A DNA stretch of 56,328 nt from Candidatus Schekmanbacteria bacterium (GCA_016188575.1 JACPHN010000181.1:1-56328); one strand, 5' to 3'; positions 9,387-27,428 are shown, counted from the first letter of the stretch. Notes: a model not told the origin generated them from the sequence alone. Made by a program: numbers and translations.

Positions 9387-12300
9387 GTGCACAACAGCCA
9401 ACGATCAGAGCGCATCCCAAGGAGCGGCGGCGTCGCCGGTTCCACCTTCGTGCCCGCAGTGCGGACGCGGCGCGCCTGCCGGCCGGGTGCGCGGCGAGTT
9501 GGTCTCGTTTCGGCGCTATTGCCGGCGCAGCTCTTGTGGATCGCCGCCGCGGCATCGCTGCTCGGGGCGGTTGTCGCCAGGGCCGAAGACGGGTCTGTGG
9601 CCAGAGTCGAGTACCGTGATCCGCTGAGCGGCCAGGCGCTCGAGCAGTTCAATCTCGACGCTGAACAGCTCATGCTGGCGGTTTCCAGCGCCGCTGGCAG
9701 CTCGCTCGACCTGGTTCCGGCGGCCTCATCAACGATCGTTGCCCGGGATCCGTCGCGGGCTGCCGGACGCAAGACGTATGTCGTGCAGCTCAAGCAGCCG
9801 GCGTTGGTCCGACTCATGCCCCAGGGGATCGCCGCCAACGGTCGGCTCGACCCCCGCGACCGCGAGTCGAAGCTCGCGCACAGTCGCTTTCTGCGCCGGG
9901 ATCCTGACGGCAAGATGCGCGTGATCGGCGAGCTGGCGCAGACGATGGCGCGCGCTCGCGAGTCGATGTCGTTGGAGCGAGAACGGGTTCTGGGCAGTCT
10001 TGGCCTGGCGCGTGAGCTCCCGCCGACGGCATCGCGCCTGGCCGCGAGCGGAGGAAAGGCGGCGGTGGGTGGCGGCGAGCGCGTCGTCTTCGACTACCGC
10101 CTGACCCTCAACGCCCTGGCGTTACGACTGGACGACGCGGAGGCCGCGGCCCTGGCGCAGCACCCGGACGTGGCCGCGGTCGCCGTTGACCAGACGGTTC
10201 GCGCCGTGCTCAGAGACAGCGTACCGCTGATCGGCGCCGATCAGTTTCGCAGCGACACTGGAGTGACGGGGGCCGGCAAGCGGATCGCCATCATCGATAC
10301 GGGCGTCGACTACATGCACCCCGATCTCGGCGGCGGCCTGGGCGCGAGCTACAAGGTGGCGGGTGGCTACGACTTTGTCAACCGCGATGCCAATCCCATG
10401 GACGACCACGGTCACGGCACCCATGTGGCAGGCACGGCGGCGGGCAACGGCCCGGTGCTTCAGGGCGTCGCCAGCGGCGCGCGCATCCTGGCGTACAAGG
10501 TGTTGAGCGCTTCGGGGTCCGGATCGTGGAGTGGCGTCATCGCCGGCATCGAGGCCGCGGCAGACCCCGACGGCGATCCCGACACGCTCGACGGCGTCGA
10601 CATCATTTCGATGAGCCTCGGCGGCGCCGGCAGCCCCGATGATCCCGTGGCGACTGCCGTGGACAATGCCACCGGCGGCGGCATTTTGTCGGTCATCGCC
10701 GCCGGCAACTCCGGACCCGGCTACGGCACGATCGGCTCGCCGGGCGTCGCGGTGACCGCGCTTACGGTCGGCGCCACAGACAAGATCGACAGCCTGGCCA
10801 GCTTCAGCTCGCGCGGTCCCGTCGGCGCCAGTGCCATCAAGCCGGACCTCACCGCGCCGGGCGTGGACATCTGCGCAGCGCAATGGGCCACGGCCTGGAA
10901 TTCGCGGCTCTGCGTGGACGATGAGCACGTCGCGATCAGCGGCACGTCGATGGCGACACCGCACGTCGCGGGTGCGGCCGCGCTCCTGTGGGAGCTCGAG
11001 CCGCAGCTCGGCCCGCTCGAGGTCAAAGCCTGGCTGATGGGCTCGGCTCAGCCGCTGCCCGGCAAGGGGCCATTCGAGGTCGGCAGTGGCCGGGCCAGCG
11101 TGACGCGGGCGCAGGCCACCACCGCGGTCGTAACGCCCGCCAGCGTGGATTTTGGCGCCGACGACGCCGCCGAACCGTTGTGGGAAGTGTCGCGGACGCT
11201 CGTTCTTCGCAACTTCTCGGACGCGCCGGCGCCGTACTCCATCGCGCTCGAGCGCGCGCTGCCCGTGGGGCTTTCGCACGAGATCGTGCCATCGATCATC
11301 GAGCTCGCGCCCGGAGAGGCCGCGCCCTTCATCCTCACGCTGCAGGTCGACAACACCGTTGTTCCCGACGCCACCAGCCCTCCTTATGCCTACTACGGAG
11401 CCATCTCCGCCATGCCTACCGGCGTCGGACCCGGCCAGGCAGGTGCTCTGCGCGTCCCCTTCAGCTTCATCAAGAGCCCGCGCCTCATCATCCATTATGA
11501 CGAGGCACCCTATGCCACCTTCATTCACGACCGCGACCGCCAGTGGCTGTTTATCTCCTATCCGTGCAAGGACCTCGTCGTACGCTTGCCCGGTGGCACC
11601 TGGGACGTGGTTTCGCTGTTCTGGAGCAATCGCGTTGTCGTGCGCGAAGGGGTCCTGGTCAGCAACGTGACCGAGATCCCGGTCCATGCCACCGAGGCGG
11701 CATACCAGCTCTCCTGGACCTACAAAAATGAAAGCGGAGGGGTGGTGCCGATTGGCCGGGGGGCTGCCAGCTTCGGGCACCTGCCTTCCGGGCTCAAGCT
11801 GATCTACCTGGGGCTCAACAACGCAGCGTGGCGCTTCAACGAGGTCTCTACCGACTATCGTTTCGACTGGAAGTTCGTCAGCGCCGACTACCTCATGCCG
11901 AAAACCTACGCTTTCGCCGATTTCCGCGACGGCATTGTGGCATCCGAGGCGATCACGAGCACCGCGGCTGACCTGCTCCTCACCCGGCAGGTCATTGACA
12001 CGGAGGGAAAGGCCAATCAGGCGTTTGTGCTCGACTGGCTATCCGAAGGGCCGAAGGGCGGATGGTCGTTCACGGGCTACAACATCTACGAAGCATACCG
12101 CGCCGTCCCCGGCAGCGGTGGAACGATCCAGGCCTATCGCAAACCTACGCCTCCAGAGGTGACCTTCGGGTGGGAGTATCAAACCGGCAACCCGTATCGC
12201 GGCGCCCCATTCGATCTTTATTCCGAGCCGCGAATCTGGGAGAGCCCCTATCTGCGCACGCCCGCGGATGCGGCCGGCCATGCGGTGATGGGGCAAGCGG

Positions 12301-15300
12301 TGGCGGGCCAGGACGCCGGACCCGTGGTGAACGAGGGGTTCCCGCTGCTGTTTGCGACCCCGCAGACCCCGCTCTTCCGCATCCAGAACGGGGCCACCGC
12401 CACCGGCGGGCTGGCGCGGCACTGGAACGTATCCTTCGTGAGCTCGTGGCAAACAATTCGCATGCAAGCAGCGGCCGGAAAGCGCAATCTTTTCGTGCTG
12501 GACGGCCGTGAGAACTTCCGGCCGTGGACGGGGCTGTCCTATCGCCTGTACAGCGAGGTGGGCGCCCTGATCCGCCAGGCGTTGCTGCCGAGCGCCGGCG
12601 GCAGCGGGTATGGTCCGCTGTCCGAGCAGGTCGCGCTGGACGCGGCGGGCAAATACCGGATCGAGCTGACCGATAGCGAGGCCCGCATCGCCGGACGCCA
12701 GGCGCAGCTCACGGTGAGCGCGACGCTCGATACGCGGCTCGGCGATCCAAATCCCCCGACGTTCTCGGCCTTGCAGACTGCCGGCACGGTGGCCTCGAGC
12801 GGCGGCCCGAAGGGCGCTCCCCGGAGCGTATTCGCCGCGAACGAAGTCGTGCGAGTCGGTTTTGCCGTTGCGGATCAGGCGCTCAGCTCCGTCACGGCGC
12901 GTCTCGCCGTCGCCTACCAGCCCGGCGAGGAGGAGCTGGCCGTGCATGCCGAATCCGCTACCAGCAGCGGTGGCACGTACTTCATGGAGCTGCCAGCGGG
13001 ACGGTACGAAGGGTTTGTCGATCTCACGATCGAGGCAACGGACAGCAGCGGAAATTCGTTACGGCACAGCTCGCGACCCGTGGCCTATATTTCCCCGACG
13101 CCGCCGACCGCGCCGGTGGTTACGGATGCCGGGGCCTTCGCGGTGCGTCGCGATCAGCTTACCGCGCAGGCTTATGCCGACGACGCGGAGAGTGGGGTGA
13201 CGAGCTTCGAGGCGGCTCTGGGCTCCAGCGCCGGGGCGACGAACATTGCCGGCTGGCGGAGCTTTGCCGCGACGCCCGCGACCGGACCGGGCGGCGAGCG
13301 CCGCGGCGTCGCGGAGCTCACGTTTACCGGGCTGGCGCTGACCGATGGCGCGACCGTGTTCGTCACGGCCAGGGCGATCAACGGCGCCGGCAGCACCGGT
13401 CCCCAGGCATCCTCCGACGGGGTGGTCGTCGACGCCAGCGCGCCGACTATCGCCTACGTGACCGATCCCGGTGCGTATACCGCGGATGGCACGAAGCTCT
13501 CGGTCAACGCCGCCGCGGCTGACGGCCAGTCGGGAGTCAGCCAGTGGCAGAGCTGCGTGGGAACGCTGCCCACGGCGTGCGATCTGGCAGACTGGACCGT
13601 CCACGGCGCCACTGCCTCACCGGTAGCGCTGCAGCATACCGGCCTGTCGCTCGCCGACGGCGCGCGGGCCTACGTTCAGGTCAAGGCGCGTAACGGTGCC
13701 GGCCTTTGGAGCGCCCCTGCGCCCAGCGATGGGGTCGTTGTCGACAGCTCGGCGCCGGGCGCCGCCGACGTCACGGTCGCCGGTTCCTTCTGGGGATCGA
13801 CGGCGACACTCGGGTTCAGCGTGCGGGCTGCCGATGCGCAGTCCGGCGTGGCGCGCTATCAGATCTGCGCGGGTGCTACCGCAACGACCTGCGATGTGCG
13901 CAACTGGGTCACCGTCGCGTCGCTCGACCCTGCCCCCGGTGCCGACGTCGCTTCGCCGCAGACGCTTACGGGTCTTTCGCTCGTCGATGGACGCCTGGTG
14001 TACATTCGTGCCCGCGCCGAGAATGGAGCGGGTCTCGTCGGTCCGCCTGGTGCCCTGGGTTCGCTGACCGTGGATGCGACGCCGGCGTCGACGCCGCTGG
14101 TGACGGATGACGGGGACTACACGACCAGTCTGGTGCAGCTCCACGCGAGCTGGTCGAGCGCCGACGCGCAAAGTGGCATTGCCGAGTATTCGTATTGCAT
14201 CGGCACCGGCCCGAGCGTGTGCAACGTCGCCGACTGGACCTCGACGAGCCAGGTGGCGGCGGTGACGCGCGGCGGGTTGAATCTCACGGACGGCGGCCGC
14301 TACACCTTCAACGTCAAGGCGCGCAACGGCGCCAATACCTGGAGTCTGGTCGGCTACTCCAACCGTATCATTGTCGACTCGACGCCGCCGGCCGTGCCGG
14401 TTGTGAGTGACAGCGGCGATTTTGCGTCGAGCGCCTCGGGCGTCACGTTTACGGCGACCTCTGGCGATGCGCACAGCGGCATCGCCCGCTATCGATATTG
14501 CCTGGGGACGGCCGCCGGCGACTGCAGCGTGCAGGACTGGCAGACCAGCACCTCCGGCGCCTTCGGCGCTGCGGGCCTGAACATCGCGGACTACACCACG
14601 GTCGTCGCAACGGTCATCGCGGTCAACGGCGCGGGCCTGGAGAGCGGCCCCGGTGTCTCCGACGGCATCGTCATGGACACGCACCTTCCGGTGGCCCCGT
14701 TGGTCACGGACGACGGTGCCTACCAACACGCTCGCGATCGCATGCACGTGACCTGGACGTCCAGCGACGACCCCGCTCGCCTGTCCGGATTCGAGGTCGC
14801 CCTCGGCCGCACGGCTGGCGCCGCGGACCTGCGCGACTGGGAAGCCTGCGGCAAGGTGTTCGAGAAGACGCTGACGGGCCTCGCGCTCGCCGATGGCGTT
14901 ACCGTCTTCGTGGCGGTGCGCGCCACCAGTCTCGGCGGCAGCCGCGGCCCGGCGGGGGCGACGGACGGCATTCTGGTGGACGGCAGCCCGCCGCGCACCG
15001 TGATCCAGACGCACGACCCGTTCACGCCCAACAAGACGGCGCTGTCCGTGACGTTGAACACGGCCGACCCCAACACGCCGGTCGTCGCCTTCGAGGTGGC
15101 GCTAGGGTCCAGCGCCGGCGCGACGGACGTGCTCGGCTGGACGCGCCACGCGGTGACGCCGCGGGTAGGCGTGGTCGAGCAGCTCGTGCAGCTCACCGGT
15201 CTGAGCTTGCAGCAGGGAGTGACCTATTACCTGATCGCGCGGGCGGAGAACGGGGTGGGGCTGAAGTGCGATCCCGGCGCTGCCACGACGGTTGCGGTGG

Positions 15301-18300
15301 ACACCACGCCGCCTGTCATCCAGGAAGTCGGTGACGGCGGTGACTATTCGCGCGACACCAACCGCCTGCAGGCGACGGTGCGCGCGGCGGACGAGACGAG
15401 CGGGCTCGGGGCGCTCGAGCTGTGGGTCGGAACCACCGCGGGAGCGGAGGATGTGCTTGGGCACCAGGCATTTTCCGGCGATCGCTTCGTCAACGGGGTC
15501 GCGTCGGTCTCGCTCACGGGTTTCAACGTCCAGAGCGGCCGGCGCGTGTTCGTGACGGCGCGCGTGCGCAACCGCGCCGGTCTGTGGTGTGCACCCGTGT
15601 CGAGCGACGGGATCACAATTGATGGCACCGCCGCCTCCACCCCGGTAGTGGAGGATGCCGGTGCCTACACGACCAGCGCGACGGCGCTGACGTTCCAGGT
15701 CAGCAGCGCCGATGCTGAATCCGGGGTAGCCGGCTATCGGATCGCGGTCGGGACGGCCGCCGGTCTTGCCGACGCCGTGGCGTGGCGCGCCGCCCAGGGG
15801 CCGTCCATCAGCCTGACGGGGCTCTCCCTGGTGAACGGCCGCAGATTCTTCGCCTCCGCCATCGCCATCAACGGCGCCGGCATCGACAGCCCGAGCGGCG
15901 TGAGCGACGGCATCACCGTGGACACGACCGCCCCCGCGCGGCCGTCCGTCAGTCTGGGCGGGCGGTTCAGCAACGGCTCCGCCGCGACGGTTACGGTCGT
16001 GGCGTCCGACCCGGAGAGCGGCATCGCTCGCTACCGAATCGGGCTGGGTACTGCTCCCGGGCTCGACGACCTGGTTTCATTCCGCGAGGTCGAGACCGCG
16101 GTGACGACGCTTACCGGGCTGGGATTGAGCGACGGGCGGCAGTACTACGCCACCGCGACCGTGCGCAATGGCGCCGGGTCGTGGAGCGAGCCCGGCACGA
16201 GCGGCGCGTGCACCGCGGATTCGCGCGCTCCGGCGAAACCGGTGGTCGCCGCCGACCGCCGCATCAGCACCGATGGCGAAATCGGCGCGAGTTATTCGTC
16301 CTCGGATGCGAGTGGCAGCGTTCTGCGCTTCGACGTCGCCGTCGGCACGGCCAAGGATGTCGCCGACGTGTTGGTGTGGAGAGCGGCGCCAAGCTCCGGG
16401 GCAGTGTTGCTCGGCGACCTCGCGCTGGTCGACGGCACCCGCTATCTGGTGCAGGTTCGCGCCATCGACGAGGCGGGCAACACCAGCGAGACGGGCGTGA
16501 GCGAGCTCGTGCTCGCCGACAGATCGCCCGCGGATCCCGCGTCCGTGGCGACAGCGAGCCGATTCGTCGCCGAAACCTCGCGGCTCACAGCCACGGCGAC
16601 GGCGGCGGACGGTCACAGCGACATCGCGTCGTTCGCCCTGGCGCTGGGCACCAGCGCGGGTGCGAGCGACGTCGCGGCATGGCGTACAGTCGACGCGCCG
16701 GGCGATGCGGTCGTCGGCAATCCCGACACCTTCCAGGCGGGCGTGCAGCGGCAGACCGCCTACACCTTCGAGGGGCTATCGCTGCTCGCCGGCGTCGAGT
16801 ACTACGTCGCGCTGCGAGTCACCAACGGCGCCGGCCTGGTGCGCGCGGTCGCATCCGGCAGCGTGATGGTCGATGCGACGTCGCCGCAGGCGCCGTCGGT
16901 CAGCGATGGCGGGACATTCCAAAAGGACAGAACGGCGCTGCCGTTTGCGGTCGCGGCGCGGGACGACGAGTCGGGAGTGCAGGCACTGGCGTACTGGGCG
17001 GGGACTGCGGCGGGGCTGGCGGATCTCGCGAGCCCGCGCGAAGTCGCGCTCGATGGGGGCAAGACGGTGAGCTGGAACGGCGCCGTGAGCGGGCTGAATC
17101 TCGCGCATGGCAGCTCGTATTTCGTCTCCGCCAAGGTCCAGGATCGGGCGGGCCACTGGTCCGCGGTGGGTGCAAGCGATGGGATTCGCGTGGACGTGGT
17201 CGCGCCGGCGACGCCGGAAGTCACCGCGGACGCGCGCGTGAGCGCGGATCGCGGCATCAGCGGCGCGTATCACGCGCAAGACGACCTGGCGGCAACAGTC
17301 CGCTACGAAGTCGGAGTCGGCACCTCGCCGCTACGGCAGGATGTTGTTCCGTGGCGCGAGGCGCCGGCCGCGGGCCACGTGAGCTTGACGGGGCTCAGCC
17401 TTGCGGACGGCGTCGGCTATTACCTCCTGGCGCGAGCCACCGACGAGGCGCGGAATGTAAGCCCCGCGGGAGCGAGCTCCAAGATCGTCGCGGACACGAG
17501 CCCGGCGACGCCGCTCACCCTTGATGCCCCGAGCTTTACTCGCGATCCGGCGGGGCTCGGCGCGGCGATGTCGGCTGCCGATGCGCACTCCGACGTCGTC
17601 AGCTTTGCCTGCGCGCTCGGCACCTCGCCGGGCGCCGCCGACGTCGCCGCATGGCGGCCGGTGGATGCGTCCGGGACCGCCGCCGCTGGCGATCCCTCGA
17701 CGTGGCAGCCCGGAACCACCCGCACCGCGCAGCTCGCGCTCGCAGACCTGTCGTTGCAGCGCGGCGTTTCATACTTCCTGACCATGCGCGCGGTAAACGG
17801 CGCCGGGCTGGTCGCGCCGCTCAGCTCTGCCGCCATCCGCCTGGACAATGCGGTCCCGGCGACGCCTGTGGTCAGCGATGGCGGCGCGCACACGGCTCTC
17901 ACCAATCGGCTCGACCTGCGCGTCGCGGCGCGGGACGAAGACAGCGGTATCGTCAAGGTCCGCTACCGCGTTGGCACGAGCGCCGGAGCCGATGACGTGG
18001 CGGCCGACCGGGAGGTTGCGGTGACGCAGGCGATGGAGATTTCCTGGCAAGGCGTCGCGACTGGGCTTTCACTCCAGTCTGGTGGGGTCTACTTCGTCGC
18101 GGCCGCGGTCGCGGATGCGGCCGGCAACTGGTCGCCGCTGGGCGCTGCCGATGGCATTCGCGTGGACACCTCCGCGCCCGGTGCCCCCACCGTTACCGAC
18201 GACGGCGAGGTGACCGCCGTCTCCGCGCACGTGCACTTCCGCTTCGAGGGCGCGGATCCCGAAAGCGGAATCGCAGCGGGCGAGGTCGCGCTCGGGTCCA

Positions 18301-21300
18301 CGGCCGGCGGCGCGGACATTGCGCCGTGGCAGGCGCTGCCCGCGGCAGCACTCGGTGCGCACGAGCACACCGTGACCGGACTCTCGCTGGCGAGCGGCAA
18401 GACCGTGTTTGTCGCCGTGCGCCTGACCAACGGCGCCGGTCTCACCGGCGCAGCCGGGACGAGCGACGGCATCCTCGTCGATTATACGATTCCTGTCGTC
18501 GAGAGCGTGGTCGACGACGGCGCCTTTACGACGCGACGCGACCGACTTTCCTTTACCGTTCACACCGCGGATTCCGGCAATACGGTGCGCGAGCTGCACT
18601 ACGCGCTCGGCACGGCTGCCGGCGGGGAAGACGTGGTCTCCAGCCGGGTCATTGAAAACCCGGCGACGACCGAGATGATCACGCTGGACGGTCTGAGCCT
18701 CGCCGACGGCGGTGCTTATTATCTGACGGCGCGCGCCAAGAACGCTCTGGAGCGGTTCTCCGACCCGGTCAGCAGCAATGGCATCACGGTCGATGGCTCG
18801 GCGCCAGGACTGCCCGCGGTGGACGATGGCGGCGCCTACTTCGGCGACGCGATCAACGTCACGGTAACCATCGCGGACCCGCACTCGGGTATCGCCAGGG
18901 CGGAAGCGTGCGTCGGTGCCACGCGCGGGTTGTGTGACGTGCTCACCTACCGCGACTGCATCGTCGGCACGGACGGCAAGATCACGGCCGCCATCGCGGA
19001 TGAGCGGCTCGTGCCTGGAACCGCCTACTACGTCACGGCGCGCGCCATCAACGGCGCGGGCCTGCAAAGTCCCGCGGGCAGTGCGGACGGCATTCGGCGC
19101 GATACAACCGCGCCGCCGGCTCCCACCATTGTCAAACAACCGGCCTGGACGCGCAGCACCAGCCGCATTGAGCTGCGGTTGCGCGGAAGTGATCTCGGGA
19201 GTGGGATCAGCGCCTTCGAAGTCGCGTTCGGCAGGACCCAAGGGGCGACAGACGTCGCCGCGTGGAAGCGCCTGCCCGTGTCTGGAGGCGTGTCGGGCGT
19301 GGATCTGGAAGCCGACGTCGCCTACGATGGGCTGCTCTTGACCCATGGCCAGATCATCTACCCGGCGGTGCGCAGCGTCGATGGTGCGGGGCTGAAGTCC
19401 GGAGTCATCACGGGTGTGGCGATCGGCGTCGATACCATCGCGCCCTCGCCCGCTCAAGCTATCGTCCTGGCGGCTGGTGGGGCGCCGATAGCGCACGATC
19501 CCGAAGTCCCCGTCGAGTGGTCCGGCTTTGTGGACTCGGGTCCCTCCGGCATTGCGGGGTACTACTTTGGCCTGGCCAACGGCGGCGGCACGACGAATGG
19601 CAGCTACACGGAGACCGCCCGCGGTCTCGTCGCTGCCGGCACCAGCAAGACCATCACGGTTTACGTGTGGGCAGCGGATCGGGCGGGGAACATCGGGCTG
19701 GCTGCCAAGGACGCGGTCGAAATCGACCTCGTGCACCCGCAGGCGCCCTGGATTTACCCCGAGCCGACCTACACGGCGGGAACCAAGAACACCCTGCAGT
19801 GGGTGGCGTCGTGCTCGTTCTGCTCGCACAAGCATCTGATCGAGGCCTCCCAGGACGATTTTGCCAGCGTGGCGTTCAGCTCGGGCTGGCTGTCTGCCTC
19901 CGCCGACTCGCGTCCGGCCACGAGCTATGCGTTCACGGGCCTCGAGGACGGCGTCACCTATCGGTATCGGGTGCGCGCGAAAGACGTGACGGGCGACATG
20001 AGCCCGTGGAGCGGCGATCGCACGTCGACACAGGACGATACGGCCCCGAAATCGGGGGCAAAGGCGATTCCGTCGCGCACGGTAGGCGCCATCGTCGATG
20101 TTCCGTTCGAGGCCAGTGACGAGCGCAGCGGGCTATCGCACGTCGAGCTGTACTACTCGCGAGCGGACTCCACGGGCGGCGGCGGTGGTGGTGACGACGA
20201 TGACCATGCCACGTGGTGTGCGCGCACCCAGGGCGGCTGGGGCAGCGAATGCAGTGGCGGCAACGTCGGGTGTCTGCGCGACGCGAGCTTCGCCGCTGTG
20301 TTCCCACAGAGCTTCAGCGTGGGAGGTCAGTACGCCATGACGTTCACCTCCTCGCAGGCGGTTGAGGCGTATCTTCCGGCCGAGTACGGGCCGGGCGTCC
20401 TGACCGCATCGGTTACCAACCCGCTCGCGACGCCGGCGGGCGTTCTTGGCGGCCAGGTGACGGCGCTTGCACTGAACGTCGCGTTTTCTGCCGAAGATCT
20501 GTTGCCGCATCCGCTGCAGAAGCCGCTCGGCAGCCGGCGTTTGCCGGACGGGAAGTTTGCGGGGCTCAAGGTGGACGAGCTGCTTGGCCTGGCGAGCGCG
20601 GTGCTCGGCGGTAACACGTCCCTGCTACCGCCGTTCGGCGCCAGTCTTGGTGACCTGGTCGCGGCGGTCGCGTTTGTAAACGAGCACGATGCGGGCTGCG
20701 ACGCGAGCGGCGGCGCGCCGGCGGCCTTCGGGCCGGCCGAGGAAGCTCCGTCATACGGACCGTTCGTGCGCTATCCGGGCTTCCAGAGGACGAGCCCCAT
20801 CGAATTCGACACGCGCAAGACGGGTGGAGCGGGTCTGTACCGCTTCTACACCGTGGCCGTGGATCGCGTCGGCAACCGCGAGGCGGCGGCCGAGGTCGCG
20901 CAGGCGAGCACGGAGGTCGTGTACGAGGCGACCGTGCTCGTGGTGGACGACGATGGCGACGGTGCGAGCGAATCGGCGGCGGTGGGAGCGCTCATGCACA
21001 CGGCCTTCGTGCCTGCGGTGTGGGACGTCGCCGCGACGGGTCGGGCGCCGAGCGCCGCGGAGCTGACGCCGTATCGCGCCGTGGTCTGGGATCGCGGCCT
21101 CGGATCGCTCAACGGCGACCTCGCCAGCGGCGAAACCGGGCTGTCGGCCGAGTCGCAGGCGGCATTGCAGGGGTACGTCGAGTCGGGAGGCGGAGTCGTG
21201 GCGGTCGGGTCGGACCTGGTTGCCGGGAGCTCTGCTGCTGCTTTCATCCGGCAGCTCTTCCACGCTGGAGCGACGGTGTCGCCCGACCTGGAGGTGGTGT

Positions 21301-21752
21301 CGGTGCGCGGGGTGACCGCGACGGCGCTGGCCCCGGTCAACGCCGAGCTCGATGCCGCGGTTGGAGATCAGGGGGCGCTGCCCGATGGCGTCGCCGCGGA
21401 TGAGCGCAGCGCGGCGGTGCTCAAGACCGACGGCGGTGCGGTGGTTGGGCTGGCGTTCGGCGGCGCCTACCGCAGCATGCTGTTGACCGTGCCGGTGGCG
21501 GCGTTCGCACTGGAAAGCGGCTACCCGAACGACGCCGCGTCGGTGCTGGCGGCCGTGCTGCAGTGGATCTTGCTTCCGGACTTCGATCTGAACGATGATC
21601 AGGTCGTGGACTTGCTGGACTGGCAGGTGTTGGCCGCGGAGCTCGGGTGCCGGGCGGGAGAAGGATGTTACCGCGACGATCACGACTTCAATGCGGATGG
21701 CCTGGTGGACGGGGTCGACCTGGTGATGTTGCAGAACGCCATGGCGCCGTGA
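9387..21752 (+). CDS. Giant secreted subtilisin (S8) repeat protein with C-terminal dockerin
   Basis: A 4121-residue secreted protein. The hydrophobic signal segment at residues 40-66 (after a long n-region) ends ARA/ED. A prodomain-like region is followed by a subtilase domain with an intact triad: Asp304 (IIDTGVD), His343 (HGHGTHVAG) and Ser521 (SGTSMATPHVAG). From about 1237 to 3550 come some 22 beta-sandwich repeats of about 105 residues. A Cys-containing domain inserted after a Gly6-Asp4 linker (about 3595-3785) and a flavodoxin/GATase-like region (about 3850-4058) follow. The C-terminus is a type I dockerin: two loops, DLNDDQVVDLLD and DFNADGLVDGVD, with Ca ligands at positions 1, 3, 5, 9 and 12. 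Start GTG 9387 has AAGG 6 nt upstream. It lies behind a c-di-GMP riboswitch and overlaps the cohesin-like gene by 4 nt, suggesting a surface protease/adhesin held by cohesin-dockerin contact (inference). Confidence 0.92.
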   Translation: MHNSQRSERIPRSGGVAGSTFVPAVRTRRACRPGARRVGLVSALLPAQLLWIAAAASLLGAVVARAEDGSVARVEYRDPLSGQALEQFNLDAEQLMLAVSSAAGSSLDLVPAASSTIVARDPSRAAGRKTYVVQLKQPALVRLMPQGIAANGRLDPRDRESKLAHSRFLRRDPDGKMRVIGELAQTMARARESMSLERERVLGSLGLARELPPTASRLAASGGKAAVGGGERVVFDYRLTLNALALRLDDAEAAALAQHPDVAAVAVDQTVRAVLRDSVPLIGADQFRSDTGVTGAGKRIAIIDTGVDYMHPDLGGGLGASYKVAGGYDFVNRDANPMDDHGHGTHVAGTAAGNGPVLQGVASGARILAYKVLSASGSGSWSGVIAGIEAAADPDGDPDTLDGVDIISMSLGGAGSPDDPVATAVDNATGGGILSVIAAGNSGPGYGTIGSPGVAVTALTVGATDKIDSLASFSSRGPVGASAIKPDLTAPGVDICAAQWATAWNSRLCVDDEHVAISGTSMATPHVAGAAALLWELEPQLGPLEVKAWLMGSAQPLPGKGPFEVGSGRASVTRAQATTAVVTPASVDFGADDAAEPLWEVSRTLVLRNFSDAPAPYSIALERALPVGLSHEIVPSIIELAPGEAAPFILTLQVDNTVVPDATSPPYAYYGAISAMPTGVGPGQAGALRVPFSFIKSPRLIIHYDEAPYATFIHDRDRQWLFISYPCKDLVVRLPGGTWDVVSLFWSNRVVVREGVLVSNVTEIPVHATEAAYQLSWTYKNESGGVVPIGRGAASFGHLPSGLKLIYLGLNNAAWRFNEVSTDYRFDWKFVSADYLMPKTYAFADFRDGIVASEAITSTAADLLLTRQVIDTEGKANQAFVLDWLSEGPKGGWSFTGYNIYEAYRAVPGSGGTIQAYRKPTPPEVTFGWEYQTGNPYRGAPFDLYSEPRIWESPYLRTPADAAGHAVMGQAVAGQDAGPVVNEGFPLLFATPQTPLFRIQNGATATGGLARHWNVSFVSSWQTIRMQAAAGKRNLFVLDGRENFRPWTGLSYRLYSEVGALIRQALLPSAGGSGYGPLSEQVALDAAGKYRIELTDSEARIAGRQAQLTVSATLDTRLGDPNPPTFSALQTAGTVASSGGPKGAPRSVFAANEVVRVGFAVADQALSSVTARLAVAYQPGEEELAVHAESATSSGGTYFMELPAGRYEGFVDLTIEATDSSGNSLRHSSRPVAYISPTPPTAPVVTDAGAFAVRRDQLTAQAYADDAESGVTSFEAALGSSAGATNIAGWRSFAATPATGPGGERRGVAELTFTGLALTDGATVFVTARAINGAGSTGPQASSDGVVVDASAPTIAYVTDPGAYTADGTKLSVNAAAADGQSGVSQWQSCVGTLPTACDLADWTVHGATASPVALQHTGLSLADGARAYVQVKARNGAGLWSAPAPSDGVVVDSSAPGAADVTVAGSFWGSTATLGFSVRAADAQSGVARYQICAGATATTCDVRNWVTVASLDPAPGADVASPQTLTGLSLVDGRLVYIRARAENGAGLVGPPGALGSLTVDATPASTPLVTDDGDYTTSLVQLHASWSSADAQSGIAEYSYCIGTGPSVCNVADWTSTSQVAAVTRGGLNLTDGGRYTFNVKARNGANTWSLVGYSNRIIVDSTPPAVPVVSDSGDFASSASGVTFTATSGDAHSGIARYRYCLGTAAGDCSVQDWQTSTSGAFGAAGLNIADYTTVVATVIAVNGAGLESGPGVSDGIVMDTHLPVAPLVTDDGAYQHARDRMHVTWTSSDDPARLSGFEVALGRTAGAADLRDWEACGKVFEKTLTGLALADGVTVFVAVRATSLGGSRGPAGATDGILVDGSPPRTVIQTHDPFTPNKTALSVTLNTADPNTPVVAFEVALGSSAGATDVLGWTRHAVTPRVGVVEQLVQLTGLSLQQGVTYYLIARAENGVGLKCDPGAATTVAVDTTPPVIQEVGDGGDYSRDTNRLQATVRAADETSGLGALELWVGTTAGAEDVLGHQAFSGDRFVNGVASVSLTGFNVQSGRRVFVTARVRNRAGLWCAPVSSDGITIDGTAASTPVVEDAGAYTTSATALTFQVSSADAESGVAGYRIAVGTAAGLADAVAWRAAQGPSISLTGLSLVNGRRFFASAIAINGAGIDSPSGVSDGITVDTTAPARPSVSLGGRFSNGSAATVTVVASDPESGIARYRIGLGTAPGLDDLVSFREVETAVTTLTGLGLSDGRQYYATATVRNGAGSWSEPGTSGACTADSRAPAKPVVAADRRISTDGEIGASYSSSDASGSVLRFDVAVGTAKDVADVLVWRAAPSSGAVLLGDLALVDGTRYLVQVRAIDEAGNTSETGVSELVLADRSPADPASVATASRFVAETSRLTATATAADGHSDIASFALALGTSAGASDVAAWRTVDAPGDAVVGNPDTFQAGVQRQTAYTFEGLSLLAGVEYYVALRVTNGAGLVRAVASGSVMVDATSPQAPSVSDGGTFQKDRTALPFAVAARDDESGVQALAYWAGTAAGLADLASPREVALDGGKTVSWNGAVSGLNLAHGSSYFVSAKVQDRAGHWSAVGASDGIRVDVVAPATPEVTADARVSADRGISGAYHAQDDLAATVRYEVGVGTSPLRQDVVPWREAPAAGHVSLTGLSLADGVGYYLLARATDEARNVSPAGASSKIVADTSPATPLTLDAPSFTRDPAGLGAAMSAADAHSDVVSFACALGTSPGAADVAAWRPVDASGTAAAGDPSTWQPGTTRTAQLALADLSLQRGVSYFLTMRAVNGAGLVAPLSSAAIRLDNAVPATPVVSDGGAHTALTNRLDLRVAARDEDSGIVKVRYRVGTSAGADDVAADREVAVTQAMEISWQGVATGLSLQSGGVYFVAAAVADAAGNWSPLGAADGIRVDTSAPGAPTVTDDGEVTAVSAHVHFRFEGADPESGIAAGEVALGSTAGGADIAPWQALPAAALGAHEHTVTGLSLASGKTVFVAVRLTNGAGLTGAAGTSDGILVDYTIPVVESVVDDGAFTTRRDRLSFTVHTADSGNTVRELHYALGTAAGGEDVVSSRVIENPATTEMITLDGLSLADGGAYYLTARAKNALERFSDPVSSNGITVDGSAPGLPAVDDGGAYFGDAINVTVTIADPHSGIARAEACVGATRGLCDVLTYRDCIVGTDGKITAAIADERLVPGTAYYVTARAINGAGLQSPAGSADGIRRDTTAPPAPTIVKQPAWTRSTSRIELRLRGSDLGSGISAFEVAFGRTQGATDVAAWKRLPVSGGVSGVDLEADVAYDGLLLTHGQIIYPAVRSVDGAGLKSGVITGVAIGVDTIAPSPAQAIVLAAGGAPIAHDPEVPVEWSGFVDSGPSGIAGYYFGLANGGGTTNGSYTETARGLVAAGTSKTITVYVWAADRAGNIGLAAKDAVEIDLVHPQAPWIYPEPTYTAGTKNTLQWVASCSFCSHKHLIEASQDDFASVAFSSGWLSASADSRPATSYAFTGLEDGVTYRYRVRAKDVTGDMSPWSGDRTSTQDDTAPKSGAKAIPSRTVGAIVDVPFEASDERSGLSHVELYYSRADSTGGGGGGDDDDHATWCARTQGGWGSECSGGNVGCLRDASFAAVFPQSFSVGGQYAMTFTSSQAVEAYLPAEYGPGVLTASVTNPLATPAGVLGGQVTALALNVAFSAEDLLPHPLQKPLGSRRLPDGKFAGLKVDELLGLASAVLGGNTSLLPPFGASLGDLVAAVAFVNEHDAGCDASGGAPAAFGPAEEAPSYGPFVRYPGFQRTSPIEFDTRKTGGAGLYRFYTVAVDRVGNREAAAEVAQASTEVVYEATVLVVDDDGDGASESAAVGALMHTAFVPAVWDVAATGRAPSAAELTPYRAVVWDRGLGSLNGDLASGETGLSAESQAALQGYVESGGGVVAVGSDLVAGSSAAAFIRQLFHAGATVSPDLEVVSVRGVTATALAPVNAELDAAVGDQGALPDGVAADERSAAVLKTDGGAVVGLAFGGAYRSMLLTVPVAAFALESGYPNDAASVLAAVLQWILLPDFDLNDDQVVDLLDWQVLAAELGCRAGEGCYRDDHDFNADGLVDGVDLVMLQNAMAP
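13098..20040 (+). repeat. About 22 tandem ~105-residue beta-sandwich repeats in the giant protein
   Basis: Each unit opens with an (A/T)P-x-x-P-x-V-x-D-x-G-x-(Y/F) pattern, has a central D-x-x-SG(I/V)xx(Y/F) and WxxG-like segment, a TGLSLxxGxxY strand and a closing AxNGAGLxSxxGxSDGIxVD motif. Units are divergent at DNA level, so this is an old duplication array rather than a perfect tandem. Members 11, 14, 20 and 21 are the most altered. The pattern resembles Ig-like/FN3-type modules of long bacterial adhesins and probably forms an extended stalk. Confidence 0.85.
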
Positions 21753-23587
21753 GCGGCGGGCGGCGCGGCGCCGTCGCCGCCGCGATGGCGGTGGCGGCGC
21801 TGGTCGTGTCCTTATGGATCGCTGCGCCCGTGAGCGCGGTTGCGGAGCGGGCGTGCAGCGGCGCCGGGGCACTGGTCGGGTTCGCCCCCGCGGTGGTCGA
21901 GGCCGCGGGGTACTTCGCGCTGACGGCAGACCTCGAGTGCGCGGAGAACCTGCACTTCGTGCGATTGACCGTCGAATACGGCGGCGGCGGCGAGCTGATG
22001 CTCGAGTCGGTGGCGGAAGGCGCGTTTCTGCGCAGCGGAGGGGACACGATCTTTTCCTGGCAGATCACCGCGCCGGGGCGTGTCGAGATCATTGTGTCGC
22101 TGGCGGCGCCCGGCGCCGTCGTCGCCGGCTCGGGAACGGTGGCGGTGCTGAAGTACGCCGTGCAGTCGCGGGTTGAGGGACTGCTCATCACCTACGACGA
22201 GTCGGCATCGCAGCTCATCGGTCCGGTCGGCGAGGTGCTGCCGGTCATCGGCTACGGCGCCGCGGAGATTCATGGGCTGGCGGTGCCGGCGGCGGCGCCC
22301 CTGCTGCTATGGGTCGCGGCGTCGGTGGCGCTGCGCGGCGTTGGGCCTGGGCGCGGTCGATCGCGCCGATGCGCAGCCCCCAGGTTGCTCCGGTCGCGGT
22401 CGGCGAAAGCGGGTCTGCGCACGGCGACAGGCGTCGCCTGTTGCGCGGTCCTGGCGTGCTCCGGCGACCAGCCAGGTGCGTGTCAGGCTGACGACTACGT
22501 TTTGGACGCGCCGGGGCGGCAAAAAATTCAGCGAAAGCTCGATGAGCTCGTCGCCGAAGGTGGCGGCAATGGCGGCGGAATCCTGCTGATCGCGTCAACC
22601 ACGGAGGGCGTGATCATGCAGGGGACTTCGGGAACGCGAGTGGCCGGCGAGGACGCCGCCATCGGTGCCGAGGATACCTTCGAGATTGCGAGCATTTCCA
22701 AGACCTTCACCGCCGCTACCGTGCTACGCCTTTTCGAAGCAGGGCGTTTCGACCTGGACGCGCGGCTCGACTCGATTCTCCCCGCGCAGCTCGTCGCGGG
22801 GCTGCTCGTGATCGACGGCCAGAGCTACGGCCCCGGTCTCACCGCGCGGCAGCTACTCAACCACACGGGCGGGCTGCCAGATTACTGGAACGATCCGCCC
22901 TTCGTGCGGCCAAAGGTCAACGCGTTCTACGCGGCGTACGAGGCCGACGAAACCCGATTCTGGAGGCCCGAGGAGATCCTTCCCTATGTCGCCGAGCTGA
23001 CGCCGATCGCCACACCCGGGAGCACCTTCCACTATGGCGATTCGGGGTACCTCCTGCTCGGGCTCGCCCTCGAGCGCATCACTGGAAAAGCGCTTCACGA
23101 CGTCTACCGCGAAGAGCTCTATGGCGGCCTGTCCATGCAGGATAGCTATCTACCGTATCGCGAGCCGCGCACGACGCAGCTTCCCGAGTCTCACCGGTAC
23201 GAAGGAGGTCACGACATGACGGGCAAGGTACACCAGACGGCCGATTGGGCCGGCGGGGGGCTGGTGAGCACTGCCGCCGACCTTGGGAGGTTTGTGCGTG
23301 GGCTCCTGGAAAACCGCGTGTTTCGTCTGCCGGCAACGCTGGACGCGATGCGCCAACAAGTCTCCACGGGCTGGGAGGATCTGAGCTACGGTCTGGGTCT
23401 CTTTCGCGTCGACCTCGGGGAGGACCTCGGCGAGCTCTGGGGGCATGAGGGCTACGGCGCGTCGTTTGCCTACTACTGGCCGCGACATGGAGTCTCTTTT
23501 ACCGGGACGCTCAACCAGACCGAGACCGAATGGTGGCCGCTGGTCGAGACGGCGATCGTCGCGGGGACATGCGGTGAGGGGCGATAG
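21749..23587 (+). CDS. Cohesin-like surface protein fused in frame to a serine beta-lactamase-family lipoprotein
   Basis: A 612-residue open frame. It has a signal peptide at residues 8-31. A cohesin-like beta-sandwich spans about 38-176, with the pattern FxLTAxLxxxENLxxVxLTVEY near its start, GSGTVAVLKYAV late, and a final LLITYDESAS strand region. Then VPAAAPLLLWVAASVALRG plus an Arg-rich end (179-207) looks like a C-terminal sorting tail. Without a stop the frame continues into a second signal with lipobox VLAC (Cys237) and a class C beta-lactamase/serine-hydrolase domain (Ser315-x-x-Lys318; HYGDSGY in the YxN position; GHEGYG). Start GTG 21749 overlaps the preceding stop (GTGA). Two genes joined by a lost stop or a sequencing error is an alternative to a true fusion. 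Its direct coupling to a dockerin protein suggests it is the cell-surface receptor (inference). Confidence 0.75.
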   Translation: MSGGRRGAVAAAMAVAALVVSLWIAAPVSAVAERACSGAGALVGFAPAVVEAAGYFALTADLECAENLHFVRLTVEYGGGGELMLESVAEGAFLRSGGDTIFSWQITAPGRVEIIVSLAAPGAVVAGSGTVAVLKYAVQSRVEGLLITYDESASQLIGPVGEVLPVIGYGAAEIHGLAVPAAAPLLLWVAASVALRGVGPGRGRSRRCAAPRLLRSRSAKAGLRTATGVACCAVLACSGDQPGACQADDYVLDAPGRQKIQRKLDELVAEGGGNGGGILLIASTTEGVIMQGTSGTRVAGEDAAIGAEDTFEIASISKTFTAATVLRLFEAGRFDLDARLDSILPAQLVAGLLVIDGQSYGPGLTARQLLNHTGGLPDYWNDPPFVRPKVNAFYAAYEADETRFWRPEEILPYVAELTPIATPGSTFHYGDSGYLLLGLALERITGKALHDVYREELYGGLSMQDSYLPYREPRTTQLPESHRYEGGHDMTGKVHQTADWAGGGLVSTAADLGRFVRGLLENRVFRLPATLDAMRQQVSTGWEDLSYGLGLFRVDLGEDLGELWGHEGYGASFAYYWPRHGVSFTGTLNQTETEWWPLVETAIVAGTCGEGR

Positions 23588-23697: not shown

Positions 23698-24795
23698 TCA
23701 TATGCCAAGCACATTATATGGAATTGCTACAGCACCACACGAATTCGCTACCATCTTGTATATATAGTGTTGATCCAGGTTGATCGTTATCAGCGCCAGA
23801 TCGTAGCAATGTGAAAGCGCAGACGCAATGGGAATCACTGTGTGTCCTGAAGTTTCAGTTCCCCACAATTCTGCTCTATGATCTGTCAGCGTAATCTTGA
23901 AATCATTTCGGAGTGCGAATGCAGACTGTTCTACGAAGTAATCAAAGAATTTGGTTGCCCCAATGCACAGGATCGACTGGTGAGAATGTAGGGGCGGCAG
24001 ACTGCTATTACAACCGACGTAAAAAAGAGGAAAGTGACGCATCGTTCTTCGACTCAGGTCTTCGGCTATCTCATCGGTTATTCCATACTCACTCATCTTC
24101 CGCTCTATGATATCCCTGGCACGATGGTAGAATTCGATTTCCGCCGGAATGAGATCTGCGATTCGGCGGCGTTCGTCGTCCGTAGGGTCTGGGTAGGTGC
24201 CCGTGTTAAGCGGTTGTGGACACCAGATGACAGGCATGGCGGCCAGCTCGGAATATAGGAGAAGTGAATGCGAGAATTTTTCTGTAAGACCGGTAACTAC
24301 GGTGTTTTCGTCTATTAGCCTGAGTGCTGCTCTTATATCTAAATCGAGAGAGAATCGCACCAGGTTATTGGACTCTAGAAACGGCCGGGAAAGAGATTCG
24401 CTTTCCAATACCTCGGACGAACTTACGTCATATCCCTGAACATTACTCCTTTGCCAATAGTAGAAATGAGATACTGCCCTTGAAATGGGCTCCCGGATCA
24501 TGCTTATCCATCGATAACCGGGTATGGGTCTGTAAAAATAGTGGCCCACCACGGTCATGTATTGCTTCTGCTTTAGTATTCGATCCACAAATCCCGAGTC
24601 AGGTCGTGCGTCATAACCATCGATCGCATTGAGATGAACATAAAGACCTGGCTCCGTATGAAGCTCCAATGCGCGCTTGAGAGTGTTTCCACCTGACTTT
24701 TGTACGTGCAAAAAAAATACTGGCTCTGTGATCCACTCGAACCCGCCAGTCCATTGATACTTTGGCGTAAGTACCATTGTACCGTTAGCAAACAT
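23698..24795 (-). CDS. Sulfotransferase-like protein, AT-rich, probably transferred
   Basis: A 365-residue protein with the two PAPS-binding motifs of sulfotransferase_2-type enzymes: FFLHVQKSGGNTLKRAL near residue 30 (5-prime phosphosulfate loop) and MIREPISRAVSHFYY near residue 100 (3-prime phosphate site with RxxxxRxxS). They predict transfer of sulfate from PAPS to a carbohydrate or similar acceptor. The last 100 residues (ILCIGATKFF onward) are not part of the usual fold and were not recognised. The start is ATG 24795 with GAGG 6 nt upstream, rather than the GTG four codons earlier. Base composition is clearly more AT-rich than in the flanking genes and codon use differs, consistent with horizontal acquisition. 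No sulfate-activation genes are nearby. Confidence 0.7.
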   Translation of the reverse strand: MFANGTMVLTPKYQWTGGFEWITEPVFFLHVQKSGGNTLKRALELHTEPGLYVHLNAIDGYDARPDSGFVDRILKQKQYMTVVGHYFYRPIPGYRWISMIREPISRAVSHFYYWQRSNVQGYDVSSSEVLESESLSRPFLESNNLVRFSLDLDIRAALRLIDENTVVTGLTEKFSHSLLLYSELAAMPVIWCPQPLNTGTYPDPTDDERRRIADLIPAEIEFYHRARDIIERKMSEYGITDEIAEDLSRRTMRHFPLFYVGCNSSLPPLHSHQSILCIGATKFFDYFVEQSAFALRNDFKITLTDHRAELWGTETSGHTVIPIASALSHCYDLALITINLDQHYIYKMVANSCGAVAIPYNVLGI

Positions 24796-25227
24796 CCAGT
24801 GCCTCACAACTGTCGTCAGATTGATCGATCAAAAAGGTCGCGGTCATCCACTCCGGCCGTTACGGACTTGGACGAGCGCAACGGACGAATCTGGCTCTTC
24901 ACTGATTGCGATGGAGAATAGCCATGAACCGAGGGAACCGGGCACAAGTGGCGGGGTGACAAGTCATCGCGCAGTCGCATACGCACTCGCATACCTACTA
25001 GCTCCCGCCATCCGAAGTCAAGGGCGGCGTGGCAAAGGCCTGAACCCTGCCAGGGGCGCGGGCCGGTGGATTCAGGGTTGTCTGTCGGGTGTGGTTCGGG
25101 TTAGACTGCTCTCGAATCGGCACTGCGCTCCCTCGGGTCGCCTGCGCCCGGCGCCATGCCGGCAGCCATGAAATGCCGATCGACGCGCTGACCTCATGTC
25201 TACCCTTCCAGGAACGGTGACACGCCC
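24796..25227. other. Intergenic region at the island boundary
   Basis: This is 432 bp without a convincing gene, between the divergent sulfotransferase-like gene and the ATPase operon. Composition rises to high GC in the middle (about 25000-25200) between two AT-richer genes, suggesting a junction of segments of different origin. No tRNA, attachment-site repeat or clear promoter could be seen by eye. Confidence 0.5.
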
Positions 25228-26481
25228 ATGGTCATTCGGCAACTGGCAGCCGAACGTTACAAGACTTATGCAGATCGGACGGTAGTATCTTGTCGTCCGT
25301 TCACTATTCTCGTAGGGAAAAATAACTCTGGAAAATCAGCCATTGCTCGTTCCCTTCCACTGATTGCGGGGTCACTCGCATTATCAAGCCATGATCGAGA
25401 TATTATTCCTCTGTCCAGTCATGGGATCGTTCATGGAATAGAGTTCGTAGACATTATAACCAATCGTTCGGCACACGGTAGCGTAGTCCTGGAAATACAG
25501 ATAGATGACATTAATCTCAATGCTTCGATTCAGAACTTCGTTCGTTCTGGTCGCGTGATCAGACAGCAGGTTACCCACTGGAAGCTCACTGGATCTGGTA
25601 GGTTCGTAGAGCTCGATTCCGTAGGTATCGATGCACCGCCCGGTCAATTCCGAGTTAGTACGGAGGCTGCGGTTGATGCCCATGTGGCGGATGATGTCCG
25701 GTGGGATGGGCTGCGTCCGCGTCTGCGGGTCGATGCTCTCGCATCATCTTTGGAATGGGTCGCAGCGCGCATGGACGAGCTTGCACAGTGGTCTGCCGGG
25801 CTCCGCTATCTCGCGTCGCCCCGAAGGCCGCAAGCCTTGTTCGCGACGCCGGGAGGGACTGCCGAGGCCGTGGAAGGTCTTGCTCACGATGGTGCCAATG
25901 TTGGTCGCATCCTCGCGGCGGATGATCAGCGCCGTCTGGCGGTGAGGGAGTGGTTCCACGAGTCACTCGAGAAGGTCGTACTGGACGTTCGTGAGCAGGG
26001 TCCGGCATCCTTCATCGAGGTGCGGCAGGGGTCGGACGCCGGGTCGGTGATGCTCGACCAGGCGGGGCAGGGAATCGCCCAGGTGCTGCCTGTGGTCGCC
26101 CTGGCCCTGGGTCGCGGCTCGGCCGGACCCGGGATCGACGTCATCGAACATCCCGAAGCCGAGCTTCATCCGGCGGCTCACGCGGCGGTCGCCGAGCTGT
26201 TGCTGAAGTCGGTTCGGGCGCCGGGTCGCCCCTTGCTTATCGAGACGCATTCGGAGATGATCCTCCTCCGTACCCGGCGGTGGGTCGCTGAGGGTCGGCT
26301 CGATCCGTCCGACGTCATCGTCTACTGGATCCAGCAGACGGACGATGGCCACGCGAGCGTTCGTCCGATTAGCATATCCCGCAGTGGGGATCTCGATGGC
26401 TGGCCCGATGGCGTCTTCTACGAGGACTATGAGGAGGTCTTGGCGATCCGGCGAGCCGCACGAAGAGGAGCCGGAGCGTGA
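25228..26481 (+). CDS. ABC/OLD-type ATPase (DUF3696-like) of a putative defence module
   Basis: A 417-residue SMC/ABC-class ATPase without a coiled coil. Walker A is GKNNSGKS (residues 30-37), the signature-like DQAGQGIAQV is at 277-286, Walker B is IDVIEHPEAELHP (303-315, with the catalytic acid in the EHPE element), and the H-loop is ETHSEMILL (339-347). This arrangement is typical of DUF3696/AAA_15 ATPases and of the ATPase halves of OLD, Gabija and PARIS systems. It starts a three-gene run with GTGA overlaps. The first ~440 bp is visibly AT-richer than the rest, with the change near residue 147, so the gene appears mosaic. Role: probably a sensor/NTPase that controls the TOPRIM-like partner (inference). 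Confidence 0.85.
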   Translation: MVIRQLAAERYKTYADRTVVSCRPFTILVGKNNSGKSAIARSLPLIAGSLALSSHDRDIIPLSSHGIVHGIEFVDIITNRSAHGSVVLEIQIDDINLNASIQNFVRSGRVIRQQVTHWKLTGSGRFVELDSVGIDAPPGQFRVSTEAAVDAHVADDVRWDGLRPRLRVDALASSLEWVAARMDELAQWSAGLRYLASPRRPQALFATPGGTAEAVEGLAHDGANVGRILAADDQRRLAVREWFHESLEKVVLDVREQGPASFIEVRQGSDAGSVMLDQAGQGIAQVLPVVALALGRGSAGPGIDVIEHPEAELHPAAHAAVAELLLKSVRAPGRPLLIETHSEMILLRTRRWVAEGRLDPSDVIVYWIQQTDDGHASVRPISISRSGDLDGWPDGVFYEDYEEVLAIRRAARRGAGA

Positions 26482-27428
26482 TCCTCTCGATCGAACGAGC
26501 CGTCGCCGACGATCCGGATAGCCACCGCTGGCTCGATCGTCTCCTGGCGAAATTCGAGGACGGATGGCACGTCTGGGAGCTCACCGGCCTGGAAGACTTC
26601 GAGTCCTCCAGTTGGATCAGAGAATCCGGGGCTCGCGGAGCACGTATTCGGGAATTCATCGCCCATGCCGTCAAGAGGAGCGCCTATCCCTTCGCGGTTC
26701 ATGGACGGCGCATTCATGTGAGCCTCGAGCTCCAGGGATCTGCCGGTCTGAGCCCCGAGTCCGCCGTACGTGTGGCGGAGGAGCCGTTGACGATCTTGGT
26801 GGAAAACGCGCGGAGTGATGGTGCGTTCCTCCTTCGTTTGTTCCGGGAGCTCGATCGCCCGCTGGAGCACTATCGCCGCTGCGATGGCAAACCGCTTCGG
26901 ATCGTTGGATGCGGGGGGGCCGGACAGATGGATCTCGAGGTCATGGAGCGGGTGAAGTCGTCACCGAGACCTCGTCTCGTCGTCGTCGTGGACAGCGACC
27001 GCCGTCGCCCTGACGGACCATCGAGCAAGACGACGACGCAGATCTCGACGGAATGCGGCCGGCTGGAGGTGCCCTGTTGGGTCTTGGCCAAACGCGAGGC
27101 GGAGAACTATCTACCCGAGGAGCTGCTCCGAGCTCGCCCCGATGCCGGAGGTGATCAATCGCGGCAAGTCGATGTGTGGAGCCGCCTGACGGACGACCAG
27201 AAGGACTTCCTGGACATGAAGAACGGACTCGGAAGCAGCGTTGATCCGAAAGATGGTGGACTGTTCGAGCTGCTGAACGACGAGGATCGCCGGCAGCTCT
27301 CGACCGGCTTCGGCGACAAGGTCTACCGGTGCTGGGAGGTGGGCCACGTCGGCGCAGGTGAGTCGCTTCGTGCACGCGGACGAGGTGACCTCGAAACCGG
27401 TCTGGCACGCATTCGATCCGAGGTGTGA
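26478..27428 (+). CDS. TOPRIM-like protein, probable effector partner of the ATPase
   Basis: A 316-residue protein whose central part has the layout of a TOPRIM fold: LTILVENARSD with Glu109, a glycine turn GCGGAGQM at 144-151, VVVVDSDRR with Asp172 and Asp174, and KREAENYLPEELL at 205-217. These acidic residues would bind Mg for nuclease or topoisomerase-type cleavage. The N-terminal 100 residues are unrecognised. GTG 26478 overlaps the ATPase stop (GTGA), and its own stop overlaps the DUF262 gene in the same way. A separate TOPRIM protein behind an ABC-type ATPase resembles PARIS (AriA/AriB), but the AriB family (DUF4435) could not be confirmed. Confidence 0.7.
   Translation: MILSIERAVADDPDSHRWLDRLLAKFEDGWHVWELTGLEDFESSSWIRESGARGARIREFIAHAVKRSAYPFAVHGRRIHVSLELQGSAGLSPESAVRVAEEPLTILVENARSDGAFLLRLFRELDRPLEHYRRCDGKPLRIVGCGGAGQMDLEVMERVKSSPRPRLVVVVDSDRRRPDGPSSKTTTQISTECGRLEVPCWVLAKREAENYLPEELLRARPDAGGDQSRQVDVWSRLTDDQKDFLDMKNGLGSSVDPKDGGLFELLNDEDRRQLSTGFGDKVYRCWEVGHVGAGESLRARGRGDLETGLARIRSEV

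Follow-up and report, generated by a model that had tools for sequence, protein, structure and literature searches.

A putative dockerin-cohesin gene pair that may tether a giant S8 protease to the envelope of a Candidatus Schekmanbacteria bacterium

Archaeoglobus fulgidus has cohesin and dockerin genes (Bayer 1999 and later work, cited in PMC9012536). They reportedly lie side by side without a cellulosome, and the archaeal modules are said to bind. That organism is archaeal, unlike the bacterium considered here, and we know of no protease payload for its cohesin and dockerin genes. Our subject is a pair of overlapping genes at positions 9387 to 23587 of a 56,328-nucleotide stretch of DNA (the window) from a Candidatus Schekmanbacteria bacterium (GCA_016188575.1 JACPHN010000181.1:1-56328). 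A scan with RimO placed the host no more closely than near deltaproteobacteria-like lineages. The first gene encodes a giant S8 protease with a C-terminal dockerin, and the second, open reading frame 2 (ORF2), encodes a protein that is predicted to be exported and to carry a cohesin. We propose that the pair is probably a noncellulosomal, bicistronic dockerin-cohesin tether that would display the giant protease at the envelope.

Several described systems come close to this arrangement. The "planctosome" of the Nemodlikiaceae (Planctomycetes), a cohesin-dockerin complex proposed for cell-surface peptide degradation, resembles the window pair in lying outside cellulose degradation, the binding in the window being predicted from sequence. 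It differs in having been proposed from an anchoring protein plus an adaptor with metallopeptidases, and the accessible part of that paper describes no overlapping dockerin-payload/single-cohesin pairs (PMC6461901). The window similarly combines a dockerin-bearing peptidase with a cohesin protein predicted to be held at the surface, without cellulases. Another uncultured bacterium, Candidatus Stygibacter (Cloacimonadota), has an S8/S53 peptidase with a C-terminal dockerin and a surface-attached cohesin protein, but its 3,755-amino-acid scaffoldin, with tandem cohesins and carbohydrate-binding modules (CBMs), acts for a large number of enzymes, glycoside hydrolases among them (PMC8542988). Like our giant protein, a ScaO-like scaffoldin of Acetivibrio mesophilus combines an S8-peptidase-like domain and a C-terminal dockerin with FN3 repeats, of which the scaffoldin has three, but it carries its own cohesin beside the dockerin and belongs to a true cellulosome producer (PMC11557425). 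Single cohesins with C-terminal transmembrane (TM) helices have been described from Lachnoclostridium sp. MSJ-17 (PMC11557425). The cohesin/dockerin adhesins of anaerobic methanotrophic (ANME) archaea and of syntrophic sulfate reducers are likewise noncellulosomal surface proteins with adhesion domains, and those listed include S8 proteases and "adjacent cohesin/dockerin domains"; their inferred role, unlike that proposed here, is in cell-cell consortia, and the portions of these papers open to us describe no dedicated protease-receptor bicistron (PMC9012536, PMC10553843). Cohesin-dockerin systems without a cellulosome are thus already in the literature, among them peptidase complexes and S8 proteins that end in a dockerin, and an earlier note's suggestion that this locus might be a wholly new type of system is not supported in view of the published peptidase and adhesin complexes (PMC6461901, PMC8542988, PMC10553843, PMC9012536). 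The features of the pair are as follows.

9387 to 21752, plus strand: giant S8 protease gene, GTG start, 4,121 amino acids (ORF calling and Pfam)
10272 to 11060, plus strand: subtilase (Peptidase_S8) domain, residues 296 to 558 (PF00082, E 3.6e-56)
13092 to 20246, plus strand: FN3/Ig-like repeats, a putative stalk, about residues 1236 to 3620 (fn3 and Ig-like Pfam matches)
21576 to 21740, plus strand: type I dockerin, residues 4064 to 4118 (PF00404, local hidden Markov model [HMM], PDB dockerins, loop shuffles)
21749 to 21752, plus strand: GTGA, the GTG start of ORF2 over the TGA stop of the giant gene (sequence)
21749 to 23587, plus strand: ORF2, 612 amino acids, with signal peptide, predicted cohesin, predicted TM/Arg-rich/hydrophobic hairpin and beta-lactamase-family hydrolase (ORF, Pfam, HMM, hydropathy)
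21845 to 22276, plus strand: predicted cohesin domain, about residues 33 to 176, profile match 56 to 144 (local HMM, shuffles, hhalign, alignment)
22277 to 22465, plus strand: TM segment (VPAAAPLLLWVAASVAL), Arg-rich stretch and second hydrophobic segment ending in the lipobox-like VLAC (hydropathy)
22574 to 23527, plus strand: serine beta-lactamase-family domain, residues 276 to 593 (PF00144, E 7e-46)

The giant protein consists, in order, of a signal-peptide-like start, an I9-like propeptide, the subtilase domain, the FN3/Ig-like repeats and the C-terminal dockerin. A motif scan found all the catalytic-triad motifs of the subtilase (DTGV at residue 304, HGTH at 343 and GTSMA at 519). The repeats have a period near 100 residues, with a weak autocorrelation peak at lag 99 to 105. 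The calcium loops of the dockerin, DLNDDQVVDLLD (residue 4067; 21585 to 21620) and DFNADGLVDGVD (residue 4100; 21684 to 21719), are both intact and are the only DxNxDxxVDxxD-type loops in the protein. Two loops arose by chance in none of 20,000 shuffles of the last 64 residues. PF00404 scored 27.4 bits here in the genome search, above the cut-off of 22.9 bits, and 21.5 bits, slightly below that cut-off, in a whole-protein scan. The phmmer matches in PDB were cellulosomal dockerins (2y3n_B, E 0.001), and a local dockerin HMM also matched the C terminus; an AlphaFold2 (AF2) model of the dockerin made without an alignment had a predicted local distance difference test score (pLDDT) of 49. With its two F-hand loops in about 55 residues, the giant protein ends in a genuine type I dockerin.

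ORF2 begins with a signal-peptide-like sequence (AVAAAMAVAALVVSLWIAAPVSAVA) followed by a beta-rich domain. Since BLASTP between this domain and the small cohesin of C54, a locus in the same genome described below, was not significant, profiles were used for comparison; a scan of the genome's contigs with the ORF2 cohesin part also found no relative. A local cohesin HMM, built from 20 cohesins of the same genome and its phylum, none of them from the window, scored 28.7 bits on ORF2 (independent E value 3e-6). The best of 2,000 composition shuffles reached 9.7 bits, and the giant protein's other beta-sandwich pieces scored 4.8 bits or less. By hhalign, the domain matched cohesins with an E value of 2e-5 and a probability of 76%, and the cohesin profile of its relatives in the phylum matched solved cohesins with E values down to 1.9e-14. 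The core motif EGAFL...GSGTVAVL was kept in an alignment with paired cohesins. ORF2 thus appears to carry a real but divergent cohesin domain. The earlier note had read the 4,121-residue protein with its two terminal loops, the GTGA overlap and the signal peptide with a cohesin-like domain correctly.

That note had also named conserved adjacency in other genomes as a check, and such adjacency was found. Loci were picked around small single-cohesin ORFs, so the pairs that follow are an example set and not a measure of frequency. Three pairs consisting of a dockerin protein and a small exported single-cohesin protein lie in the window's own genome (the window, C54 and C223), and in both C54 and C223 the genes overlap by ATGA. 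In a second genome of the phylum (G004), the sole cohesin and the sole dockerin found at E 0.001 adjoin, the cohesin lipoprotein starting 19 bp past the dockerin gene. Another lineage has six pairs in one genome (G231; L183, L184, L187, L188, L202 and L203) and one in a second (G092; L211), with gaps of −11 to +18 bp, either gene order and a lipobox-like signal on every cohesin. G231 has roughly 2,300 genes, of which about 10 encode dockerins and 11 encode small cohesins, and by a rough estimate chance would produce some 0.05 pairs there. The payload of L202 is an S8 protease with PKD/LVIVD repeats, which makes this locus an independent parallel to the window pair; that of L211 is an M36/M4-like protease with FN3, and further payloads of such pairs are VWA, RCC1 and PKD proteins. 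In a sample of 386 diverse genomes, 82 had cohesin matches.

Across the pairs, dockerin distances correlated with cohesin distances (seven pairs gave r 0.92 with a permutation P of 0.008, and 10 pairs gave r 0.91), as expected for co-inherited partners. A few candidates were set aside. C235 (L022) looked at first like a further pair, but its small ORF starts unusually, with many Arg residues, and is similar to the second cohesin in the cohesin-dockerin-cohesin protein of C138; the locus was therefore taken as one frameshifted gene and left uncounted. The dockerin-like matches at L191 (G374) and L194 were weak and away from the C terminus, and at L174 the gap is 83 bp and the dockerin is not at the C terminus. 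In a separate observation, the C223 locus (L029 9184 to 10163, minus strand) encodes a short one-TM protein with a C-terminal dockerin that overlaps, by ATGA, a cohesin-like lipoprotein gene. By eye, the short protein is possibly anti-sigma-like, and the locus may be a form of the pair that works in sensing.

These data are consistent with the following model. The giant S8 protease would be secreted; its FN3/Ig-like repeats would form a stalk, and the dockerin at its C terminus would be a noncovalent anchor tag that depends on calcium. Its receptor would come from the overlapping gene downstream: a single cohesin that is exported, stays in the membrane by means of the TM/Arg-rich hairpin or a CTERM-like tail, and is joined in this case to a beta-lactamase-family hydrolase. 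With calcium, dockerin and neighbouring cohesin would meet in the envelope, so that the protease would be displayed on the cell rather than lost and could act there in envelope or extracellular proteolysis.

Several points weigh against this model. The Pfam cohesin model (PF00963) had no match in ORF2 at E<1, which is why we call the cohesin divergent. AF2 on the lone cohesin sequence, without an alignment, gave an all-beta model with a pLDDT of 52 and no decisive match; with this low-confidence single-sequence model, Foldseek cohesin matches were weak and the VIA-align rows included no cohesin. Two of the parallels in the genome are imperfect: the C54 giant protein has, by eye, a second cohesin-like stretch after its dockerin, and the cohesin of C223 is weak (E 0.009). 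Joint duplication or shared phylogeny could give the same correlation of distances, which for that reason is no proof of binding. Finally, other modules encoded in the genome (at least 11 cohesin and 11 dockerin matches) could cross-bind with those of the window.

This last point leads to the strongest alternative, that the window modules do not bind each other exclusively and belong to a genome-wide, cross-reactive set of cohesins and dockerins at the surface, a mesh like that of the planctosome. Searches of the genome gave at least 11 matches for cohesins and at least 12 for dockerins, many of the modules lying in single cohesin-dockerin-cohesin proteins with a TM tail that would be able to chain. 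Cohesins and dockerins were both present in all eight genomes of the phylum examined, and the phylum includes genomes with up to 43 to 44 dockerins and a scaffoldin-like protein with five cohesins. Against a shared network, tight gene pairing recurs, G004 has a single adjoining pair, and the window modules have diverged from the other copies. We regard the mesh as unlikely. The earlier note's idea of a dedicated one-to-one pair is only partly supported: pairing recurs at the level of the locus and G004 has exactly one of each, but with the number of modules in the window's own genome cross-binding is possible.

In the phylum, the genomes G005 and G006 (2.8 and 3.5 Mb) have 43 and 44 dockerin matches, respectively, and no CBM3 match; they appear to be large noncellulosomal dockerin sets. 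In G003, of the same phylum, L177 6598 to 9807 (minus strand) encodes the scaffoldin-like protein with five cohesins, and a dockerin-tipped gene lies 195 bp downstream.

Signs of a cellulosome were absent, as the earlier note had maintained. A scan of the window ORFs, not every small one included, turned up no glycoside hydrolase. CBM3 was missing from the eight phylum genomes in a search that matched a control in Bacillus subtilis; GH48 was also unmatched in all eight, but the same search matched none of the control genomes either. ORF2 itself has one cohesin and no CBM, where the scaffoldin of a cellulosome would have tandem cohesins and CBM3.

The earlier note picked out the cohesin-like part of ORF2 and did not mention the predicted hairpin or the PF00144 domain, which makes up more than half of the 612-amino-acid protein. 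Cohesin, hairpin and hydrolase share one open frame. Because membrane proteins follow the positive-inside rule, the TM/Arg-rich/TM stretch reads as a membrane hairpin with cohesin and payload both predicted outside; 22277 to 22465 may be such a hairpin anchor or a CTERM-like tail followed by a second signal. Two other proteins of the genome, C31 (L027) and C138 (L023), have the same order of signal peptide, cohesin, TM, Arg-rich stretch, TM and payload, with dockerin/TIG as the payload where ORF2 has the hydrolase. In these (L027 8370 to 12170 and L023 9782 to 13504), cohesin and dockerin flank the membrane hairpin on either side. Their architecture argues against a frameshift artefact as the source of the ORF2 fusion. 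Codon-position GC content dips around the cohesin/hydrolase junction, and the frame may instead merge two genes, one for a cohesin with a CTERM-like tail and the other for a lipoprotein hydrolase, as supported by a relative of the hydrolase in G002 that stands alone and has a lipobox-like start of its own. All eight phylum genomes have an exosortase-like PF09721 gene. Curated CTERM models gave no match over cut-off on the tails, and the CTERM-like tail of ORF2 is internal, not C-terminal.

The size of the PF00144 domain and its in-frame junction with the cohesin would also suit a second alternative, in which ORF2 is chiefly a hydrolase of the beta-lactamase/DD-peptidase/esterase family and the cohesin brings the hydrolase to the protease, not the protease to the cell. 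We consider such an enzyme-enzyme complex improbable. Paired cohesin proteins elsewhere consist of a signal and a cohesin only, with no enzyme; a TM segment separates cohesin and hydrolase in ORF2; and, because the G002 relative stands alone, the join may be recent or two genes run together. Least probable of all is that the window cohesin has diverged too far to bind and that the overlap is a relic of a split dockerin-cohesin gene: its low identity, missing Pfam match and poor single-sequence fold, together with the cohesin-dockerin-cohesin fusions of the genome as a possible ancestor, would fit, but the open frame, intact signal peptide, conserved EGAFL...GSGTVAVL motif and two intact dockerin loops point the other way.

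Around the pair, the cyclic di-GMP control suggested by the earlier note found no support: neither the ORF scan nor a motif scan of the window gave a GGDEF or PilZ domain, and the regulators seen were two sigma-54 response regulators, a CRP-type factor and a Ser/Thr kinase-ATPase. A sulfotransferase-like ORF (23698 to 24807, minus strand) lies mostly within a low-GC stretch (54% at 24 to 26 kb versus about 67%) and was possibly acquired, given its markedly lower GC content. Directly downstream of the pair and beside this stretch, three overlapping ORFs (25228 to 29155, plus strand) correspond to A, B and C of the PADLOC candidate anti-phage system PDC-M55 (E 6e-73, 3e-34 and 7e-123).

Bicistrons in which a dockerin payload and a cohesin lipoprotein are tightly spaced did not turn up in a literature search, whose coverage omitted most subscription journals. 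Because such plug-and-socket gene pairs recur in unrelated bacteria, our comparison suggests that compact dockerin-payload/single-cohesin bicistrons may be a little-noticed means of tethering secreted proteins without a cellulosome. We advance more tentatively, at somewhat short of an even chance, the broader idea that several uncultured bacterial lineages use dockerins generally as C-terminal tags for anchoring, each tagged secreted protein being encoded together with its own small cohesin lipoprotein or membrane receptor. Such tags would be a noncovalent, calcium-dependent counterpart of LPXTG, PEP-CTERM or type IX secretion system (T9SS) anchoring, and recognition specific to each pair would allow a single cell to contain many of them. 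One paper describes what cohesins and dockerins do outside cellulosomes as unknown (PMC5244752, citing Peer et al. 2009), and the compact pairs, above all that of G004 with one module of each kind, reduce this question to a direct two-protein test. If the tether model is true, these loci could provide protein engineers with many distinct binding pairs that depend on calcium, and they would account for how giant secreted proteases stay at the cell.

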